A DNA stretch of 64,000 nucleotides, from assembly GCA_030549175.1 (NCBI GenBank), contig JAUKUA010000003.1, forward strand, positions 3,348,001 through 3,412,000. The letters run 5' to 3'. The notes under the pieces are model-generated. The model saw only the letters and a program-made list of their open reading frames with translations, searched no databases and was not told the DNA's origin. Numbering within the stretch: the first letter of the stretch is position 1; the number at the start of each line of letters is the position of its first letter. The translations under genes were made by a program, and so were the position numbers. Below are positions 16,196 to 46,696 of the stretch, in pieces. This DNA comes from Lasiosphaeris hirsuta (taxonomy: Eukaryota; Ascomycota; Sordariomycetes; Sordariales; Lasiosphaeriaceae).

Positions 16196-16642
16196 CTAGG
16201 ACGTATTGACGGCTTTGATCTTGATGCCATCCTTTGTCAGCTGGATATATTCGGCCTCGTCCCGCTTGTAAGTATTCACAGCCTTGATTTTGATCCCGTC
16301 CTTGGCCAGCTTTGCGTATTCCTCCTCGTCTCGCTTGTAAGTGTTGACTGCCTTGATCTTGATTCCATCTTTGGCCAGCTTGGAGTAGTCGCTCTCCTCG
16401 TCGCGCTTATAAGTGTTGACGGCCTTGATCTTGATGCTGTCCTTGGCGAGGTTGGAAAGCTGCGGGTAGGTTGTTAGTGAGTTGCAATCAATTGGCAGTG
16501 AAGAGCGCACCTCTTCGCCTCGCCTGTACGTGTTCACGGCTTTAATCTTGATACCGTCCTTAGCGAGATCCTTGGCCGGAGCCGGGGCTGCGACGATGGC
16601 GGTGGCCTGCAGAGCCGCGAGCGCGATCAGATCGAGACGCAT
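16196..16642 (-). CDS. Kex2-processed repeat peptide precursor (candidate fungal RiPP precursor)
   Basis: Two exons (16642-16511, 16459-16196) around a 51 nt intron with GTGCGC donor, CTAAC branch site and CCCGCAG acceptor give 131 aa. Residues 1-19 are a signal peptide (MRLDLIALAALQATAIVAA). Five repeats follow at residues 26-41, 48-63, 72-87, 95-110 and 118-131. Each is L-A-K-D-G-I-K-I-K-A-V-N-T-Y followed by KR (RR after repeat 1), then a DEE-type acidic spacer. Secretory Kex2 would cut after KR or RR, and a Kex1-type carboxypeptidase would trim the basic pair, leaving peptides that end in NTY. Repeat 2 has DS instead of DG, and repeat 5 ends NTS-stop with no dibasic site. The intron falls between repeats 1 and 2 and keeps frame even if retained. 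A UstYa-type oxidase diverges from it, as in dikaritin-type RiPP loci. The mature product and its cross-links are unknown. Confidence 0.85.
   Translation of the reverse strand: MRLDLIALAALQATAIVAAPAPAKDLAKDGIKIKAVNTYRRGEEVRSSLPIDCNSLTTYPQLSNLAKDSIKIKAVNTYKRDEESDYSKLAKDGIKIKAVNTYKRDEEEYAKLAKDGIKIKAVNTYKRDEAEYIQLTKDGIKIKAVNTS
16199..16567 (-). repeat. Five in-gene repeats of the core peptide, spaced 22-24 codons
   Basis: The repeated word is IKIKAVNT. Codons for the same residues differ between copies: the Asp-Gly pair is GACGGT, GATGGA, GACGGG and GATGGC in four copies, and GACAGC (Asp-Ser) in one. The conservation is therefore at the protein level. Confidence 0.95.
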
Positions 16643-17791
16643 GTTGAGCTCAAGATAAAATGATCTAGAGTGTTGGCTGATATCTTGGAGCTCAAAACGG
16701 ATGGCTCTAGCGCAGAAGTACCCTTGCTATATACCTAATGTTCTACACAAAGTAACGTCATTAATGTTGCACACACAGTGCTCTGCCCGAACGTTTCGTT
16801 TGTTCAAGCACTTGCCTCTTTTAGTTTCCGGTACAGGTGGGCTGCGGAGATGTTTGATGCTTATTGTTCGTACCCCCGAGTTGCAACGTCGGGGGCTACG
16901 AGCTGCCTTCTTCGGCGGGATTGCGACGGTTTTGTTGGTGCAAAGTCAATAGCTCAATGGGGAGATCCGCATGGAGAGCTCCGCATCGAGAAGGTGTGAT
17001 GATGACTCTCAATTATAAACCCGTATAAGAGATGCCCAAGGCCTCAAGGGGCGTGGTGATGCATGGTACTATTACCTCAAAGCAACAGGAAATAGGCCGT
17101 TGCTACCCTATTGCCTGGCCCTGTGTTGATATGATGCATGGGATGATAGATCCAGGGTGTTGTGATTGGCACGTCTCGGAATGCTGGTCGGTCAGCGGTA
17201 TATCCAAGGACAACTCTTTTATGTCCTGCCCAAGTCGGGATCAACCCCAACCATATCGAGTTAATACCGTAGCGGGAGAAATGGGGAAAGGGAAAGAGGG
17301 GGGGGGGGGGGGGGGGGAGGCGAATGGATTGCCTTAGTTGGGCTTGTACAACGAGTACCTAATCGGTGCACAGTAAGCACTTAAATAGTAAGTCAAGTAC
17401 AGTAGGTAGTTTGTGCTTACGGTCCGCTCCGTATACCAGCTGAAGCAAGTGGCACAAAAGCATCCCCTGTGAACAACTAGACCCGATAAAGCAGTTCATT
17501 CACATCGTGGAGTAGATAGGTTGAAGTATGTTACGCAGGCAACTTTTGAAGAGACAAGGGTGCAAACCCTCCAATCTGGTCCCGACCTTGATCAGTATTC
17601 TTTGTACATTAGGTACCTAAGATGATCCATTTTCTTATCTTCTCGTCTGCCTGCATCGGCGCATATGCCGAGCAAAGCATGCTGGTGGTTAGCAGCGGAG
17701 AAGGGGAGAGAGAAAACTCTTTTATCCATCTGTTTCAAAGCTATATTCTACACACACTCACACATTCGCGTTTTGTTTCATATAGCCTATC
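16643..17791. promoter_or_regulatory. Divergent intergenic region between peptide precursor and UstYa-type oxidase
   Basis: A 1.15 kb region with no supported gene. TATATA at 16728-16733 lies about 90 nt upstream of the precursor start. A G-run of about 18 bases sits at 17301-17318. The two genes point away from each other, so a shared control region is likely. Confidence 0.5.
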
Positions 17792-18824
17792 ATGTTGTCT
17801 CAACTCTGGAGTTCCTACCGGGCATTGCCTCGAAATGAACTCTGGGATAAAGATGGTGGCATTGAAGCGCCACCATTCACGTCCTCGCCGAGCTTCACAC
17901 GCCGGTGCCTTACACGATTCTCTCCATGGCCCCGTTCAACTATTGTCCTGACAACCTCCAACATTGTAACCGTCATTTTCTTGGTCTCCCTGTTGAAATC
18001 AGGCTCGACTCCTTCTCCCGCCGAAATAATTTCCACCCCATGTTTGTCCCAGCCCTTCCCCCCCCCAGTACCACCACCTCCTGACCGAAATCCAGCGCCT
18101 GCACTTGACGCAGTCCAGTACCTCAGCCCAGAGCACTACGATGCCGCCTTCCGGCAGACCAACCGCTGGCGTGGCCCGCCCGGCACGCACTCCAACGACG
18201 TCGACATCGCCTGGTACGAGATTGAGCTCGGCGCCGGCGGCATCCGGCTGACGGCCGACGAGGTCCGTCAGCTCAACGTTTCGAGCACTCCCGCACATCC
18301 GCTCCATAAAGTGCCCGAGGAACATGGTGGCGGGTACCTTGCCATGCTGGAAGTCTTTCATCTTCTGCACTGTCTGGTATGTGCCCTTCTACGATAGAGT
18401 GGCCCAGCTGACACGGCCAAAGAACTCCCTCCGCATGGGTCTGTTCTACAACTACGAACACTACAAGTTTCTTGATGAGGGCGTTCCCGAAGAGAACATC
18501 ATAACTCATTTTGGTCTGTAAATATTTCGTCCCTGCCACTGGCAACATGGGCAACTAAACATGACTCGAGTAGACCACTGTGCCGACATGATTCGCATGA
18601 GCCTCATGTGCTCGGCCGACGTGACGCCTGCCGTGTTTTACGACCCCCTAGAAGACCCTCGGCGACGCGATGCCCTACCCAATTGGTCATCTCTTCACAC
18701 CTGTCGCAACTTTGACGCAATCTTAGAATGGAATAAGAATGGGCCACGCTCCGTCCGGTGGAGAGATGCCGGCCCCAATCTGGCATGGGACCCTTCATTC
18801 CCTGGCGCCGAAGAACCCTTCTAG
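17792..18824 (+). CDS. UstYa-family (DUF3328) oxidase
   Basis: Three exons (17792-18376, 18423-18513, 18574-18824; introns of 46 and 60 nt) give 308 aa. A single membrane helix lies at about residues 50-68 (IVLTTSNIVTVIFLVSLL), followed by a proline-rich stalk and the lumenal domain. The stalk leads into RWRGPPGTHSNDVDIAW, the family's YRGPP-like word. Both diagnostic HxxHC motifs are present: HLLHC at the end of exon 1, and HFDHC, whose Asp is split by the second intron (THF then DHCADMIRMSLMC). LHTCRNFDAI near the end is the conserved C-terminal CRNF word. Known members oxidise and cyclise peptides from Kex2-processed repeat precursors (ustiloxin, phomopsin, asperipin types). Its position head to head with a repeat precursor supports that role. 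Only one copy is found here; characterised loci often have two or more. Confidence 0.9.
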
Positions 18825-19109
18825 CCCGAGCATGGAGAAGGAGATCACCACCACCACCACGAACACAAATAACACCCGAGCCGGGATAAAAGTCAAGTAG
18901 AATATGTGATGATAAGCGGTCCTGTATAGAGGTATCTACATCCCCGAACTCCAAACTCCGAACCTCGCGCCAAAAGTCCATAATGAGGTGACCCAATCCG
19001 CCAACTCTGGTAAAATCCAACCCACCTTGGGTAACTTCAAACGCCAGAACAAGAAAAGCAAGCTCCGGCCGATGCAGCGCTGCCAAACCAATGCTATGCT
19101 ATGCTATGC
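18825..19109. other. Convergent 3' region with ATGCT microsatellite
   Basis: The 3' ends of the oxidase and the giant ankyrin gene meet here. An ATGCT pentamer repeat (about 4 copies) is at 19091-19110, touching the ankyrin stop codon. Confidence 0.6.
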
Positions 19110-22100
19110 TTAAGCCATTTTAGTCAAAGACCTCCCATATTGCTCTTGTTTCATAAACTCCTCCCGTTGTCTCCACCTGTTCAGCTCCTCGAGATCGACT
19201 TTGCCAATGACATCGCCCCTCTGCGTCTTCAGCGCAGTCATCTCCCTCCGCTTTCTCTCGCGGCTGTCGCGAGAATGATACATTTCCCTCATTTCCTTCT
19301 CCGCCACCATTCTGTCTTGCTCATAGAGCACATCTTGCTTCAAGCGATACCTATCCCGCGCCTTTTCACCGCCCTCAAAGCTCTGCTGTCGCTGGCGAGC
19401 CTCTTGCTCCTTTGGCTCCTGCGGGAAAGTCCCCGGCATACTCTCCGGCCCACGGCTCCGCTGGTGCTGGTGCTGCTGTGACATCTCTGAGCCTCGTCGG
19501 CTCCCTGCTTGCCGTTCGTGTTGCACGTCTTTAGCATGTATGCTGCTTTGCACCCTCTCGCTAGTGCGGCGCGAGTCGCTGACATAACCTTCGTCGGTTC
19601 TCCGGCTTTGGCGTTCCCAAGAACGGCGCTCCCGCTCGTACTCCTTGATCTCTTCCGGAAGCCCGATTGCGTCCTCCGGCTGAGTTTCGTTGGGGCCAGC
19701 GTAAAACCGATCTTCGGCTCCATGGTCTCTCAAGATTCGAATGAGCGCCTCTGATCGCGGTCCATGGAGTATTCCTTTGAATACATACATGGTGGGCGAG
19801 TAGTAGTAGATACCCTGCTGGAAAGTGTTCTCCTGGCTATTTATCGTCCGGTAAAGCACCTTCTCAAGCAACAACTGTGTCATGGATTCGTTCTTTGGGT
19901 TGTCAAGCGCCAGAAAAATGACAGTTTTGCAGCGGACTTTGAGAAGAGGGCTCGCTCCTGCTTCGCAGAGGATGTCCAGCGCTTCTTCCGCATCAGTCGG
20001 GTCATTGGGGACGATGCCATGGAGTGCGATTTCAGCAAGGGCGGTGCGTCCCTCATGTCGGGTCGATCTGAAATTGGCGTCGTGGCCAGCCTTGATGAGA
20101 AGTCTCAGTACCCGAGGGTGAAAGCCGCGTGACGCTTCATGGAGGCTCCCATCGTTGACGCTGGGCTTACTCCTGAGCAATAGCGTTGCGAGATCAACAT
20201 CCCCAGAGCGAGAGGCAAAAAACAATGCGGATCTACCCAGGACATCCTTGCATAGCACCTTAGCGCCAGCCTCGAGAAGTATTCGCACAACTTCACGGCG
20301 GCCCGCCCTGGCTGCAAGTAAAAGCGGATTGGCCCGGGTTCGCGGTGTTGTATAGCATACGTCGGCTCCGTGGGAAATTAATCTTTTGAGTACTGAAGGT
20401 CGAATTCCACCTGGTTGGAGGAGCGACCACATCAAGACAGACACCGGCTCCGGACCCTGGCTGATAGGTCGGCCATCCCGGTCCTTCATAATCTCATTTG
20501 CGTAAACCTGGGACGGGACCGTCGCCTCAAGCTGACAACCAGCATTTACCAGGCTGTCGAGCAGTGACACTGAGTCCGGGTATGACTTGAGACACATCAA
20601 AATAGGGGGGAGCATGCCTGGAATAGTATGATTGACATCTAGAACGCCGACCCGCTGATTTGTAAAGGCGGCTATGAGTTGTAGCAGGAGCGACTCTTTG
20701 TGGTGAGCCATGATGGAGATCGAAAGGGCGAGAGATGCAGTAGCAGATGTGGCGCCATGACTCAAAAGGAGGGATAGTAGAAATGGATCGCCCCTGCCGG
20801 CTGCTACCCCAACTGCTTTCCCATTGTCGTGATTGACATCGGCTTGAGCACCGAAAAGAGTGGCGAGGAACGCCTTCCCAAGATCCATTTGAGAATCTTG
20901 ACAGGCCACATGGTCGACCAGCTCAACCAATGCCTTGTTGACCACCTGGCCGGATGCGCCATGGCGAAGGAGAAGCTGGACTATTTCAAGGTTCTCAAAC
21001 GCAATCCACTGTCTTCCGCGGCTAATGATGCCCAAGAGTGCCTGGGTAAAGATCGCCTCGTGGTGTCCAGAATATCGCGACAGCATGCGAATGAGGTCCA
21101 GATTGAAGTTGTAAGCAGCGTTCTTTATACACACACCCTCCTCATGCGTGGCTTCAGCACCTGCTTCCAAAAGCACCTCGACAAGGCCAAGGTCCGTGTC
21201 GCGCTCGAGAGTGAGGTGCTTCATCGAAATGTTGAGATGGTCCGTTTGTAAACGGTCCAATAGTTGTCTGAATATGATCATGCGGTTTGACCTGGGGGCT
21301 TTGAGTGCCTCTAAGGCTGCGGTGAATAGCGCCTTATAGGAGACGCCCTGGGTCAAGAGTAAAGAAAAAGCGTCAGGCTGGAAGCATCGAATGGCGAAAA
21401 TGAAAACCTCTCCCTTGTTGTAATTCACGGACCCCCTCGACATAAGCAACTCAACAACTCTCCTACGAATAGTTCGTCAGCGCTGTCCAAACATGGATCC
21501 TAGAGGGGATGTACTTACATGTCTGCTGGACCCGTTTTAAAGAGGTCGACCAGTGCCCTACCCACTGCATCCTCACAAATCTGATTGCGAAGCAGAATAT
21601 GAACAAGAGCGTATCTCTCACGCCTGTCCGAAATCTTCATCGCCCACGGCAAAGCTGCGCCGAGGGTACTTGGTGATGGATGCCTTGCAATTATTTCCTC
21701 TGTAAGGTCGGCACGAGATGCCTGTACTGCGATTTGGAGAGCTTCCCCTTGTCCGTAGTCAACATCGGCTACCCCGTGACTCAGCAGCAGAGTAAAGAGC
21801 TGCCTGTTGATTTGCCTGTCCGACATCGTCTCTGCCCCCCTCTCTCCTTTCGCAGTGACTAGTTTGGTAGCTTTTACCAAACCGTCGGCCGTGCACATCC
21901 CTTGCGCGCCTGCATTTACCAGGAAGCGAGCGACTTCGTACCGAAGCTGTGTATCCTTGATCTTCATCGCTTGCGAAACGGCAACCGTGAGGCTCTCTGG
22001 AGATGGCTGGAACTCGAGGAGCTTGAGGAGGATCTCAACCTTTTCGGCTTGAATAGCCTCCAAGAGAGCGAAGGTCTCGTATTGTTGTGGTGGTGTTCTA

Positions 22101-23017
22101 AGTCGTAGGATAATACCCAAGAGGATGGCGTGGCTTCTTCTCACAGCGTGCAAGACGCCTTCGGTTACGAGCCATGTAGTCTCTGGTCCTGCGGCGCCCG
22201 CTGATAGGCACATTTCGAGAATTTCTTGTCCCGCCCGGGTTTCCTTCTCTCCCATAATCTCAACAGCCTTCCCGACGGCAGCGTCAAGAGAGCGTGGAGA
22301 AGGTAGCACCGGCCCAGATATAAGCGCTCGAACGATGTCGGGTCGAAATATCTCCACCGCATCAACCAGAGCAACGGCGTTATCGTGGTTGACATCCGCC
22401 CAGCACTTGAGGAGAAGCTGTGTTACATCGAGAGATCGGTTCTTGACAGAGAGTCGGAGTCCAGTGGATCGGCAGGCAAGGCAGGGAAGTCGGTGGCCAG
22501 ACAAGAGGGCTTGGACAAGCCCCACCTGATTCTGGTATACGGCGTTCATGAAATCGTCGTGTAGCTGAACCGGGTTGGCACCATGGTCTAGTAGCGCTTG
22601 CAGGACGGAGAGATCTCCTCGACCAATGGCATGATGAAGAACGCTGTCAAGGTTTTCTTGGTCTGCGTGGGCAGCGAGAACGCGGACGATATCGGGGCGA
22701 CATTGTGCTGTGGCTCGGAGGAGCACATTGCTGCGCTGTCCTTGATGTTGGTTGAGTGTGATCTTATTCCACGCTCCCGAACTCCTCCGCCGTGCGAAGT
22801 TGATGTCAGCCCCAAATGCCAGCAATGCCTTGACAACATCGGCTGACCCATTCGCTTCCACCACCTCGGATAACACACTATTCGCCTCTTGGTAGGTGAA
22901 GGCCGTGTCGTTTTGGAACGAAAAGGGTGAACAAAAGCAGCCGAAAGATTGCTCTTCGGCGTGGAGAGAGCGCTGGGCTTGAAGCAGCCGCCTTGCTTGG
23001 TCGATGGCACTCTCCAT
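19110..23017 (-). CDS. Giant ankyrin-repeat protein with charged C-terminal tail
   Basis: Two exons (23017-21519 and 21462-19110) joined by a 56 nt intron (GTAAGT to TTCGTAG) give 1283 aa. The join rebuilds an ankyrin helix (TGPADM then RVVELLMSRG). Most of the protein is degenerate ankyrin repeats, many with LLLSHGA, LLEAGA or ALLDHGANP words. About residues 1090-1283 are a highly charged Arg/Glu/Gln region likely to be coiled or disordered (ERERRSWERQSRR; QEARQRQQSFEGGEK). The start MESAIDQARRLLQAQ was chosen for its good context (CACAATGG); an in-frame ATG at 23107 would add 30 residues with no clear function. It has no catalytic domain, so it is probably a scaffold. It sits between the RiPP-like pair and an MFS transporter, without an evident link. 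Confidence 0.85.
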
Positions 23018-24891
23018 TGTGAACCGTTGGCTATAGTAGCCGGTTGCTCTAGACACATCGAAGCGCAGAGGCAAAAAGAGTGACACACTGAGTGTGGGGA
23101 GCGGCACGAAAAGCCTCCAACTTGGGGAACACCCGGCATTTTGAGATGGCTATGGTTCGCGTAGATTCAAGATGGACTAGACTAAAATCCCACAAGCATG
23201 GATTGCCAACAGCCGCCACACGGATGCCGATTGGCTGCGAGCGGGCATCAACAAGCGCACTTTGGCTTTGTTTCGATGGGCGCAGGAGGGAGCGCCATTC
23301 GAAACAAGAAGAAACAGTAACAGATCCTAGCTCGTAGAAACACAAACGCGCGTGTGCGCCAATCTCCTGAAGCCGAAGCTTGGCTTCGATCCGGCAGCAT
23401 GGAATGTCGGCTATGCTGACCCTGTGCTGGCCCTGTGCTTGTGAATTCACCCTGCTGCGGCTTGGGCCCGAGCCTCTGGGTCGGGCAAGTTGAGGCCCAG
23501 GGGGATTTGACGTCGTGGATGGTGTGATGTTGACGAGTCGTTGGTTGTTCCTTGCATCATTAGCCGCTGGCTCGCTTCACAAACAGAAGCTCTGCATAGC
23601 GCTCCACATGGCGCGACCAATGACAACACGCCGCCGACCTTATTAGCGCCAGAAAAAAAAAGCCACATCGTCAAAGTCGCTTGAATTGGGGGAGAACCAG
23701 CCACGAGTGCGCTTGGAGTAGCCCATCGATCTTCAACCCACCTCATGGCCCGACCAGAATGACCCTCCATCGGGCGGGCGGTCTGTGATACCAGCACCCA
23801 AAATCAACCTGGCCGACTCCCAAATCAGCCTGGACAGGCGCTGTGGTGGGAGCGATGGTATTCAAATCGAATTGTTGCCATTCCATCAACAACCGCGTGT
23901 GAGGCTTGGTTCGTAGTGGTGTAGTCTTCTCCGTAGAGAACCAAGAGTCCTAGTCCGCCTTTCCTCTTTCGTGTCTATCCCCTGTTGCTGTGAAGCACAC
24001 CCGGCGAATGCGTGATCCGAACCAGAGGCTTGCAGCTCTTAGGTCGCAGCCCACAGGAAAAAGCTTGTTATGGAAAGGGAAGATGCCCGACCAGCCTGGA
24101 AGAAACCCGGCCTATCGCACGAGCCATTTCTGGTCTTTTGATCCGGTCAGGTTGGGTGAGCTGGCTGGATACTATGCAAAGCGAACTGGGCCGGAAGGTC
24201 ACCGACGTGCGCCGCGGAACGGTGGGCTTCTCCGAATTGATCGAATCGATTGATGCGGTCGGGACCTCTGCTTCCTGCAGGCTGTCCCAGCGGTTCTGGG
24301 TCGGGTGCGAATTGGTTGTTGGGTTGTCGGTCAGGTTATGGTAGAGAGTGGGTACCGTGCACCTTCAGCAGACAGTCACAATGCAGAACAGGCTGTCAAG
24401 TGGAAACGAATCAAGTAATAACTGCAGCTCATGAATTTCGAAACCCGTAGTGGCCTGCGAATTCCGGTGACGACAGCAAGCGAGGAGAAGAGAGAAGTGA
24501 CTCGGGTGAAGCTCGAAGGGTTGGGGCGCGAGGGGTGCGCACTGACTGGGCTTCTTCCACCCACCGTCACCTGCAACATACCTAGTCCAGTCCCGTCGGT
24601 CTCCCACGCTCCTGCGCGCTCTCGCTCTCTCGTGCTCGCTCGTACCTGACAGCAAGGCAATTCCTTCGACGCTCATTCCAATTCCTTTCAATAACAGACT
24701 ACGCTACGATAGACGCCGACCTGTGGTAATAATTTCCGAGTCATCGCGCTCTGCCCCTGCTTCGATCCTTGTATTCGTCGAACTACAACTGGGATGTCGC
24801 AGACAAGCAGGCCATTTCATCATCGGTATGCTTCCCTAGCGCCGGTATTTTGGCCAATACCAAAAGGCATGCCTATCAAATCCTGCTCGCA
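23018..24891. other. 1.9 kb gap, no convincing gene
   Basis: This is the upstream region of the ankyrin gene and the 3' flank of the MFS gene. Open frames on both strands are short, lack domain features and overlap one another. A CT-rich tract on the plus strand (CGCTCTCGCTCTCTCGTGC) is at about 24618-24636. Confidence 0.4.
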
Positions 24892-44495: not shown

Positions 44496-45476
44496 CTATC
44501 CCTGCAGCGCCTCGAGTACTCGCCGCTTTGAAGACTCGTACCGTGTGGCGCCCTCATGCACCGCATTGGTCCGATAGTCGTCACGGCCGTGTCGTCGACA
44601 AATTCTGGCCGGGACCGTCAGACCGTGGTCGGGGCGCCAAGCGCACTGGCAAGTGGCCGGCTCGAAGGCGAGACCGCTAGCGTTGAGGATTTCAAAGGCA
44701 TTTCTGCCCGCCGAGTTGTGGACCGTGGCATCGGCGCCGCGGTCTCGGACCAAGAAGGTGACGAGTGAGGCGCCCGGGAATTCCACATTCTTGTGGTAGC
44801 GTACAGCCATTGTCAGGAGGGTTTCTCCGTTCTCGGGGAACCGCGCATCTATACCCATTCCGAAGCGCAAAATCAGGTCCATCAGGTGTTTGATGAGATC
44901 CTGACGCTTTTTCTCGATCTCATCATCGTGGTGATAGCAGCAGAGCACCTCCCACAAGTTATTATACCCACACATGGAGTGGTGCAGGGCTGACTCTAGG
45001 AGCCAGATCAAGATGCCTCTCAGCTGCGGCTGAGTAAGGCCGGGCCCCATCTCCAAGAGGGCCATCATGACCTGGTATCGGTCATGGTTGTGTGCCGCAG
45101 CCATCAGGGATGCGACGTGTCCATCACCTCTGGTCACCGCCTCAGACCAGGGGTTGCTGTGGTGGACAACGTCTTCGTATCGGGCACCGTTTTTGGCCAG
45201 CTCGGCCATCACCTGGTCATAATGTCCTTGAACGTCCTCTGCGTAGTAGAGAGGCGTCTTGCCGTACTCGTCCACTTCGTTGACATCGGCGCCTTCGGCG
45301 ATGGCTTTCTCAATGATCGGAATTTGGCCCATTTTGGCGCCCCAGATCAATGCTAGCGAGGGAGCGGTTAGTTGAAGGCCAAGCCTTTCTGAGTAGCCGA
45401 GGGAGAACTCACCACCAAATGGGTCAGCGGGGGGTCCTCCATCGGGGAGGGCTGGGGAGTCGGTTCGTTCCATCAT
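44496..45476 (-). CDS. Ankyrin-repeat protein
   Basis: Exons 45476-45413 and 45352-44496 with a 60 nt intron (GTGAGT to CTCGCTAG, with CTAAC branch) give 306 aa. The frame stays open across the intron, but splicing gives a better ankyrin start (PFGALIWGAKMGQIPIIEKAIAEGADVNEVDEYGKTPLYYA when read through). Two to four ankyrin units are visible: the one quoted, DGHVASLMAAAHNHDRYQVMMALLE, and NGETLLTMAVRYHKN. The C-terminus is Cys/His/Arg-rich (CQCAWRPDHGL; RICRRHGRDDY). The start MMERTDSP was preferred. An ATG at 45692 opens 72 more codons, but these lie in a tandemly duplicated segment that looks like a leader. Function unknown. Confidence 0.8.
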   Translation of the reverse strand: MMERTDSPALPDGGPPADPFGGEFSLGYSERLGLQLTAPSLALIWGAKMGQIPIIEKAIAEGADVNEVDEYGKTPLYYAEDVQGHYDQVMAELAKNGARYEDVVHHSNPWSEAVTRGDGHVASLMAAAHNHDRYQVMMALLEMGPGLTQPQLRGILIWLLESALHHSMCGYNNLWEVLCCYHHDDEIEKKRQDLIKHLMDLILRFGMGIDARFPENGETLLTMAVRYHKNVEFPGASLVTFLVRDRGADATVHNSAGRNAFEILNASGLAFEPATCQCAWRPDHGLTVPARICRRHGRDDYRTNAVHEGATRYESSKRRVLEALQG

Positions 45477-45487
45477 TTCTACCGCTT

Positions 45488-45680
45488 GTAATAGTCGGTG
45501 GCAGCGTGGTGGTTGGTGTTGACTGTCCAGATGATGCGTGGATTTCAATGAACAAGGTAGAAACGCTGGAAAGACCACCGCATGTAATAGTCGGTAGCAG
45601 TGTGGTGGTGGGTGCTGACTGCCCACCAGATCATTCGTGGACTTCCAATAAACAAAGCAGAGACGGTGGGAAAGATGGAA
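45488..45680. repeat. 96 bp tandem duplication upstream of the ankyrin gene
   Basis: GTAATAGTCGGTGGCAGCGT at 45488 recurs as GTAATAGTCGGTAGCAGTGT at 45584. The similarity continues through the GTGGATTTCAATGAACAA / GTGGACTTCCAATAAACAA words. A third partial copy (CGTGGATTTCAAC) is at about 45698. Confidence 0.85.
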
Positions 45681-45756
45681 GGAAGAACACATCCCGTCGT
45701 GGATTTCAACAAAAATTATCGCAGCCCGCTCTATTTCGGGCGGTCTGAGCTGAGAC

Positions 45757-45797
45757 CCGCCGATTCTCCGCCGATTCTCCGCCGATTCTCCGCCGTC
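45757..45797. repeat. 11-12 bp tandem repeat (CGCCGATTCTC)
   Basis: GCCGATTCTCC is repeated three times in tandem, with a partial fourth copy ending GCCGTC. Confidence 0.9.
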
Positions 45798-46696
45798 ATA
45801 TGAAAGCCGACTTTGGACACGCCGAGTGAATGATTGATTTCATTGGAGCATATCGAGAGCAAGGGCCGCCATGTGTGCGAGAATTTCTTTTCTTCACCAT
45901 GCCTGCCACCGAGCAAGGCTCTGGGCCGGGGAGGATACTCGTGACAGGTATCATAGAAATGTACAGATAGATCTAAACATCATATTGAGCCACACTCTTA
46001 TATCAAGATCCTGGCCCCTGAAAAAAGGGGGTGAGATAACACCAACTTCCTATTAAGCTAGTGCTCAAACCTAGGGTCTGGCTAAAGGCCCCCTCAAAAG
46101 TACTAGAGATTCAAGGTCTTATATCGATACACTAGGACTTAGTCGATTGATCTACTAAATCTAAAGAAACACATTAAGGATCCAACAGATACCGATATAT
46201 TTGGGGGGGGGGGGGGGGGCCTAAACCTCGATGCCATCTCAAAGCTTGGCAGCTCAAAGCCTACCATGTTAAGGCATGTGAAAGGAGCCACCCTATCAAG
46301 TTCCAAAAGAAACCCATTTGGGTTAGTTATGTATTCCAGTGCTTTGATTAAATTCGACGGGGAAAGAGGACTCTTGTATGTAGGCTTTGTAACTTGGGGT
46401 TTCTCTTTGACTATGGCTAGAGATTCCGGAAACTGGACTGGATTCAAGAAAAAATTTCCCTTTTTTTTGTGTTAGTTTTGACATTGGGAGTAGGTACCTA
46501 AGTTGTTGTTTAGTACAAACAGCGTGTTGACAGACTCCCCCAGCTTGGTACTTGCTATGTTCGACTTGGTATGGGGTCAAGGATCCCGATTTCTCCGGCT
46601 AAGTGATACATCTATATTAAAGTATGATAATTAAGGGTGACGATATTGAAGCTATATTTTCGTACCTACAAGGCAACGTTTGGGCAAGCCTGGCCG

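Follow-up and report, generated by a model that had tools for sequence, protein, structure and literature searches.

Dikaritins, the closest described counterparts of the locus analyzed here, are fungal ribosomally synthesized and post-translationally modified peptides (RiPPs) whose gene content is a gene for a Kex2-processed repeat protein (KEP) together with a gene of the UstYa (DUF3328) family; members of this family are characterized by two HxxHC motifs and an N-terminal membrane helix. UstYa-family enzymes are described as containing a dicopper site and carrying out oxygen-dependent cross-linking of side chains (PMC12186524). A survey of Kex2-repeat precursors found UstYa genes near 1,758 of 7,878, most commonly at the adjacent position, and the repeats of precursors with such neighbors contain Tyr more often (PMC7329392). 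The ustiloxin and phomopsin clusters combine a secreted repeat precursor with dibasic sites, 2 and 5 DUF3328 proteins, respectively, and a tyrosinase, and the residues linked in their products are Tyr and Ile (PMC7329392); S41 peptidases are named in phomopsin-type clusters (PMC6514808). The asperipin-2a cluster of Aspergillus flavus consists of four genes (aprA, aprY, aprT, and aprR), including those for a repeat precursor and for one UstYa-family enzyme to which sequential oxidative macrocyclization has been ascribed (PMC6514808). The victorin precursor of Cochliobolus victoriae has also been counted among the Kex2-processed dikaritins (PMC10512285, PMC9769878). Here, we analyze a candidate locus of this type in Lasiosphaeris hirsuta, located at positions 16196-18824 of a 64,000-nucleotide (nt) stretch of contig JAUKUA010000003.1 (positions 3,348,001 to 3,412,000), hereafter the window, in which a repeat precursor gene and a UstYa-family gene stand head to head.

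The combination of one repeat precursor with one UstYa-family enzyme matches that of the asperipin-2a cluster, and the secreted precursor with its dibasic sites resembles those of ustiloxin and phomopsin. We consider it likely that the locus is a minimal, two-gene dikaritin-like RiPP cassette, in which Tyr-ended peptides would be released by Kex2 and Kex1 and oxidized by the UstYa enzyme. Given the number of surveyed precursors with a UstYa neighbor, this architecture is already well known; it is the core family that is new to our searches. An earlier note on this DNA had correctly placed a Kex2-repeat precursor beside a UstYa gene, but rated the pair as more unusual than is warranted, because pairs of this kind are already known in large numbers (PMC7329392) and the same genome encodes four further candidates (see below).

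The precursor gene, on the minus strand (16642..16196), encodes a protein of 131 amino acids (aa) once a 51-nt GT-AG intron (16460..16510), proposed from the sequence, is spliced out; with this intron retained, the frame stays open and yields 148 aa. Exon 1 (16511..16642) encodes a signal-peptide-like hydrophobic leader, in which the 12-residue hydropathy mean peaks at 2.13 from residue 6 and AAP follows the hydrophobic stretch, and repeat 1; exon 2 (16196..16459) encodes repeats 2-5, followed by the stop codon. Judged by hydropathy and by eye, the protein thus has the secretion signal of a KEP, and it has five repeats, where KEPs have at least three near-identical ones separated by dibasic sites. 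Cores 1 (16526..16561), 3 (16337..16372), and 4 (16268..16303) read KDGIKIKAVNTY, core 2 (16409..16444) reads KDSIKIKAVNTY, and core 5 (16199..16234) reads KDGIKIKAVNTS, with the consensus KD[SG]IKIKAVNT[YS]. Core 1 is followed by RR and cores 2-4 by KR, with Tyr preceding the dibasic site in all four copies, whereas core 5 ends in VNTS at the stop codon, with neither Tyr nor a dibasic site, so that Tyr is the core end in four of the five. Accordingly, the secreted-type precursor with five repeats described in the earlier note is borne out, but not its claim that every repeat ends in KR or RR.

The precursor is a single-copy gene in the L. hirsuta genome. Among the window cores, the 10 pairwise comparisons of a 14-codon stretch gave 67 synonymous and 12 nonsynonymous differences in 140 codons compared; because synonymous changes dominate, we infer that the repeat is maintained at the protein level by selection and does not result from recent DNA duplication. 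ACT_7 and four other Pfam families matched the precursor weakly, each under its own cut-off, and these matches were attributed to chance. No L. hirsuta precursor was among the matches in single-sequence and profile searches of the protein database, so the gene seems to be unannotated there, at least in the database searched. The computed neutral monoisotopic masses of the unmodified peptides include 1348.771 for KDGIKIKAVNTY, 1105.650 for GIKIKAVNTY, 2192.169 for GEELSNLAKDSIKIKAVNTY, and 2397.243 for DEEEYAKLAKDGIKIKAVNTY.

A single-sequence search with the precursor returned 5 proteins at E up to 1, all from Colletotrichum, whereas a profile search, with scoring limited to the 7,994 candidates that shared the most words, brought the set to 17 homologous precursors (weakest E 3.1e-8), adding C. 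cereale, C. zoysiae, and Purpureocillium takamizusanense. These comprise seven Colletotrichum proteins (P0001-P0005, P0051, and P0053), one from Purpureocillium (P0057), and nine others, most with a signal-like start by eye; the named holders of the core belong to Sordariales, Glomerellales, and Hypocreales. The Colletotrichum and Purpureocillium precursors share the core and repeat layout of the window protein but contain two or three repeats rather than five, and six of these eight end in Tyr at the stop, where the window protein ends in Ser. Position 8 of the core is Ser in Colletotrichum and Ala in Purpureocillium and the window. The Colletotrichum protein P0001 carries the precomputed family label PF28464.

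Across 50 core copies from 18 precursors, position 12 is Tyr in 49, the sole Tyr-less copy being the window's last one, with Ser; because the search pattern allows a single residue at position 1 and a limited choice at positions 2, 4, 6, and 7, only the other positions, Tyr12 included, are informative in this count. One match, in the P0056 signal peptide, was excluded as due to chance, N was allowed at position 2 (adding one copy, in P0057), and fragmentary and near-identical precursors were left as found. Positions 4, 6, and 7 (Ile, Ile, and Lys) are also kept in the aligned repeats of six precursors, an alignment made without the core pattern. Position 5 is I, K, V, Y, or Q, position 8 is Ser or Ala, position 11 is Thr in 40 of the 50 copies, and aromatic residues other than Tyr12 are rare (3 of 50, in a slightly different set of copies). 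The core is followed by KR or RR in 40 copies and by the protein end in 8, 7 of which end on Tyr, as if a stop codon at position 12 acted as a stand-in for Kex2 cleavage and Kex1 trimming; two copies have neither a dibasic site nor the protein end directly after position 12, one in P0051 (K, then the end) and one in P0061 (QG).

These counts separate the two candidates for the oxidized residue that had been named in the earlier note. The Tyr before KR is favored, although it is not invariant, as had been stated, given the Ser of window core 5. The Tyr of the acidic spacers was rejected as a general rule: it occurs within 6 aa upstream of the core in 19 of the 20 Colletotrichum copies and three of the five window copies but in only 7 of the 25 others.

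The core itself departs from the described ones. Asperipin-2a has the core FYYTGY, with several aromatic residues (PMC6514808), whereas the window core is rich in Lys and Ile and has one C-terminal Tyr; it also lacks the YxIx signature of ustiloxin and phomopsin (PMC7329392), and the window precursor has no Cys, unlike the Sordariomycete alpha-pheromone core with its two Cys (PMC6339444). The core words tried were absent from the literature searched, which does not contradict the claim of the earlier note that the core is unlike published ones; because such a text search does not extend to figures and supplementary tables, the two precursor surveys (PMC6339444, PMC7329392) may already include this family. 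The core may bear some likeness to that of victorin.

The UstYa-family gene (17792..18824, plus strand) encodes 290 aa after removal of three introns (54, 46, and 60 nt). Exon 1 (17792..18041) encodes a membrane-helix-like stretch (19-residue hydropathy mean peaking at 2.13 from residue 50), exon 2 (18096..18376) carries the first HxxHC motif, HLLHC, just before its end, exon 3 (18423..18513) encodes NSLRMGLFYNYEHYK...ITHF, where orthologs go on as HCLNSLRMGLFYNY, and exon 4 (18574..18824), with TAG at its end, completes the second motif, HFDHC, which arises only by exon joining across the 60-nt intron. The first intron (18042-18095, 54 nt) is present in the best model and agrees with the deposited L. 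hirsuta protein P0006, which matches the 290-aa model throughout but for a single additional residue at a splice junction. The Pfam UstYa profile (PF11807) scored 151.9 bits against a cut-off of 25, for a 308-aa model retaining the 54-nt intron. In an alignment of 33 sequences (A2), H165, H168, C169, and H199 are invariant, and H202 and C203 are conserved in at least 90%. A sequence search returned 45 proteins at E ≤0.001, of which 23 are assigned to Colletotrichum; identity to the window protein is 56-78% for 27 of these proteins (P0007-P0033). For the C. caudatum ortholog, the single sequence match among solved chains (E 0.017) was taken as chance. Directly after the TAG, the in-frame stretch PEHGEGDHHHHHEHK (18825..18872) resembles the His-rich C-terminal tail of orthologs (at least 3 His within the last 14 aa in 23 of the 30 UstYa matches P0006-P0035); it might represent a truncated tail or, possibly, stop-codon readthrough.

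The start codons of the precursor and UstYa genes are 1,149 bp apart, in divergent orientation; the distance of 1.15 kb, the membrane helix, and the two HxxHC motifs reported earlier for the UstYa-type gene are all confirmed. The intergenic region (16643..17791), defined by position only, is presumed to contain a shared promoter region. Linkage in relatives was assessed by a proxy, namely, precursor and UstYa ortholog on contigs of equal size (the longest contig for each), which gives neither distance nor orientation. By this measure, 5 of the 17 precursor homologs are paired with a UstYa ortholog, and linkage therefore seems to be conserved among relatives. The species agree in four pairs, from C. 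caudatum (contig 16,294; P0003 and P0013), C. somersetense (186,330; P0004 and P0017), C. cereale (33,695; P0051 and P0012), and C. zoysiae (766,871; P0053 and P0024), whereas the fifth (17,528; P0054 and P0046) is defined by equal contig size. Thus, four of the eight Colletotrichum and Purpureocillium precursors share contig size with a same-species UstYa ortholog, in line with the window pair.

In a UstYa tree of 20 proteins, the Colletotrichum rows group together (99/97), as do two Xylariales rows (91/82), whereas the three Sordariales rows of the window's subfamily group weakly (76/80); Purpureocillium (Hypocreales) falls beside the Xylariales rows (87/85), and deeper forks are weak. A further row, from Diplogelasinospora (Sordariales), is placed among the more distant UstYa rows. 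This topology is compatible with descent of the oxidase along with the species but is no proof of it.

Around the pair, Pfam scans covered 30 of the 78 stop-to-stop open reading frames (ORFs), none past 47.6 kb, and the precursor and the oxidase separately. The scanned ORFs encode ankyrin proteins, directly downstream of the oxidase (ankyrin-repeat frames 19110-23149) and also at 44496-45839; an MFS transporter at 25.1-26.8 kb, about 6 kb past the oxidase; an arylsulfotransferase-like protein at 27.9-29.7 kb; a PEBP-like protein; oxidoreductases at the left edge; and others. A larger RiPP cluster was rejected, given that no tyrosinase, S41 peptidase, methyltransferase, or other typical RiPP gene was recognized in the scanned ORFs and that the 42 tyrosinase matches of the genome all lie outside the window (C8:3348001-3412000); on these grounds, the cassette probably consists of the two genes, possibly with the MFS transporter. 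In this respect, the window, with its single UstYa gene, differs from the ustiloxin and phomopsin clusters and their several DUF3328 proteins, tyrosinase, and, in the phomopsin type, S41 peptidases. Unlike in the asperipin-2a cluster, no reductase was recognized directly beside the pair.

Under the cassette reading, which is built from sequence comparison, the precursor would enter the secretory pathway, Kex2 would cleave after each KR or RR, and Kex1 would remove the basic residues, by analogy with KEP processing (PMC9769878); a kexin-type P-domain is encoded on C1 of the genome. Each copy would give a peptide ending at Tyr12 of the core K-D-[SG]-I-x-I-K-[SA]-x-x-T-Y, a position at which, in several homologs, the last copy already ends through the stop codon. 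The membrane-bound UstYa-family enzyme, through its two HxxHC metal motifs, would then oxidize the released peptide. The likeliest site of oxidation would be the C-terminal Tyr, a natural target as the only near-invariant aromatic residue in the core, perhaps linked to Lys7 or to one of the conserved Ile residues (4 or 6). The acidic spacers would probably serve as leader or spacer outside the final product. Processing, secretion, oxidation, and the identity of the modified residue are thus all inferred steps.

Several observations weigh against this reading. The two genes recognized are fewer than the four of the asperipin-2a cluster, and the typical RiPP genes, tyrosinase among them, are missing from the scanned ORFs, as noted above. 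The UstYa copy in the window could be weakened, because the TAG precedes the His-rich tail retained in orthologs. For the C. caudatum ortholog, structure prediction gave a model of poor quality (mean pLDDT 64.9), and comparison of this model with solved structures gave no fold match at E ≤0.001. For 12 of the 17 precursor homologs, no UstYa match on an equal-sized contig was present among the matches listed; 9 of these 12 are on contigs shorter than 6 kb, whereas those of C. sublineola, C. navitas, and P. takamizusanense are on longer ones. Finally, the Tyr12 count draws heavily on Colletotrichum copies that are nearly identical and on homologs that were themselves retrieved by similarity.

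Of the alternatives, the one that survives best overlaps with the cassette reading: the UstYa enzyme might hydroxylate, desaturate, or halogenate the core, with no Tyr-linked ring being formed. A copper-dependent halogenase presumably belongs to the same family as UstYa, and some UstYa orthologs are labeled Cyclochlorotine biosynthesis protein O in the source database. Furthermore, phomopsin desaturation requires UstYa homologs (PMC10512285). Set against this variant is the near-invariant aromatic residue of the core, the very residue used by the known Tyr-linked rings (PMC7329392), and we regard the variant as possible, though it is not what we would expect.

It appears unlikely that the precursor gives rise to plain linear secreted peptides (a hormone, a pheromone-like signal, or a surface-active peptide), with the neighboring UstYa enzyme acting elsewhere. 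Linear peptides, or ones with minimal modification, are indeed the products of many Kex2-repeat precursors (PMC9769878), the alternation of charged and aliphatic residues in KDSIKIKAVNTY could be that of a beta-strand, and DA-PA dipeptides follow KR in some homologs, as in Ste13-trimmed precursors. However, position 5, with its five alternative residues, is incompatible with strict alternation, pheromone-type precursors nearly all lack a DUF3328 neighbor (PMC7329392), and the apparent recurrence of the UstYa linkage speaks for a joint role. Least probable, in our assessment, is that a formerly working cassette is now decaying in L. hirsuta, having lost the oxidase tail and the Tyr of the last core: the in-frame His-rich tail beyond the TAG, the replacement of TY by TS in core 5, and the recovery of an L. 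hirsuta UstYa protein but no L. hirsuta precursor in protein searches would fit, but both frames are otherwise intact, both HxxHC motifs are present, synonymous changes prevail among the cores, and short genes are easily missed by annotation.

The cassette in the window is accompanied by other candidate pairs in the same genome. The 41 UstYa matches of the genome form 31 groups (600-bp gap) and 21 neighborhoods (20-kb gap), of which we examined 18, the window and 17 others in 20 stretches of 6.5-10 kb (C1:4408 kb, C11:2482 kb, and C14:332 kb being excluded). The UstYa genes in 19 of these 20 stretches are 25-47% identical to the window protein over pieces of at least 40 residues, and three short pieces (16-22 residues) reach 55-65%. 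Repeat precursors were detected in at least 5 of the 18 neighborhoods (the window, C7:261 kb, C10:3388 kb, C7:1360 kb, and C11:1841 kb), a lower bound because the scan required an uninterrupted frame and identical 4-residue words within about 10 kb around each UstYa match. In the 257 kb examined, 7 frames passed the repeat criterion, two of them being readings of a single precursor in other frames, whereas no frame passed in 20 codon-shuffled copies of this sequence. In four of the five neighborhoods, the precursor is divergent from the nearest UstYa match.

The four further candidates differ in their repeats. At about 261 kb of C7 (genome G000, as for the others), the candidate precursor (L014:8068-8436) contains eight DATQYYDK(K)R copies and is divergent from the UstYa match (L014:5153-5632). 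At about 3388 kb of C10, about ten ARHHKGKKTNGKR copies (L019:1880-2782) lie divergently from the match L019:5168-5648; di-His motifs occur in some UstYa-linked precursor types (PMC7329392). The candidate at about 1360 kb of C7 (L022:2361-2852), with nine DTVIPDKQKYE-type copies, is on the same strand as its match (L022:4629-5159), and the one at about 1841 kb of C11 (L030:2522-3328), with seven ARQGGKKVTFLPKDYKR-type copies, is divergent (match L030:4930-5079). The stretches C13:706204-715414 and C11:3845137-3859710 contain several UstYa matches each, but no repeat precursor passed the scan; the latter also includes tyrosinase matches at 3856.7-3857.4 kb.

That the core occurs across three Sordariomycete orders points to a role beyond any one host or species and, speculatively, makes a conserved signal or general defense compound likelier than a species-specific one. 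In its most specific form, the proposal would be that the core K[DAN]x[IL]xIK[SA]xxxY is a conserved oxidized messenger or defense compound of Sordariomycetes, made by a minimal cassette, with the C-terminal Tyr modified through a link to a Lys or Ile located five to eight residues upstream; taken as a whole, this is rather unlikely. If true, such a connection would imply a larger ring or a different link compared to the known dikaritins. Interest in this core family also comes from the small number of characterized dikaritins, five as counted in 2022 (PMC10512285), against at least 838 known precursor types (PMC7329392). Because the core is of fixed length, mostly has a single aromatic residue, and comes in natural variants with matching oxidases in several fungi, the family would be well suited to a clean test of the way in which a single UstYa enzyme reads its peptide.

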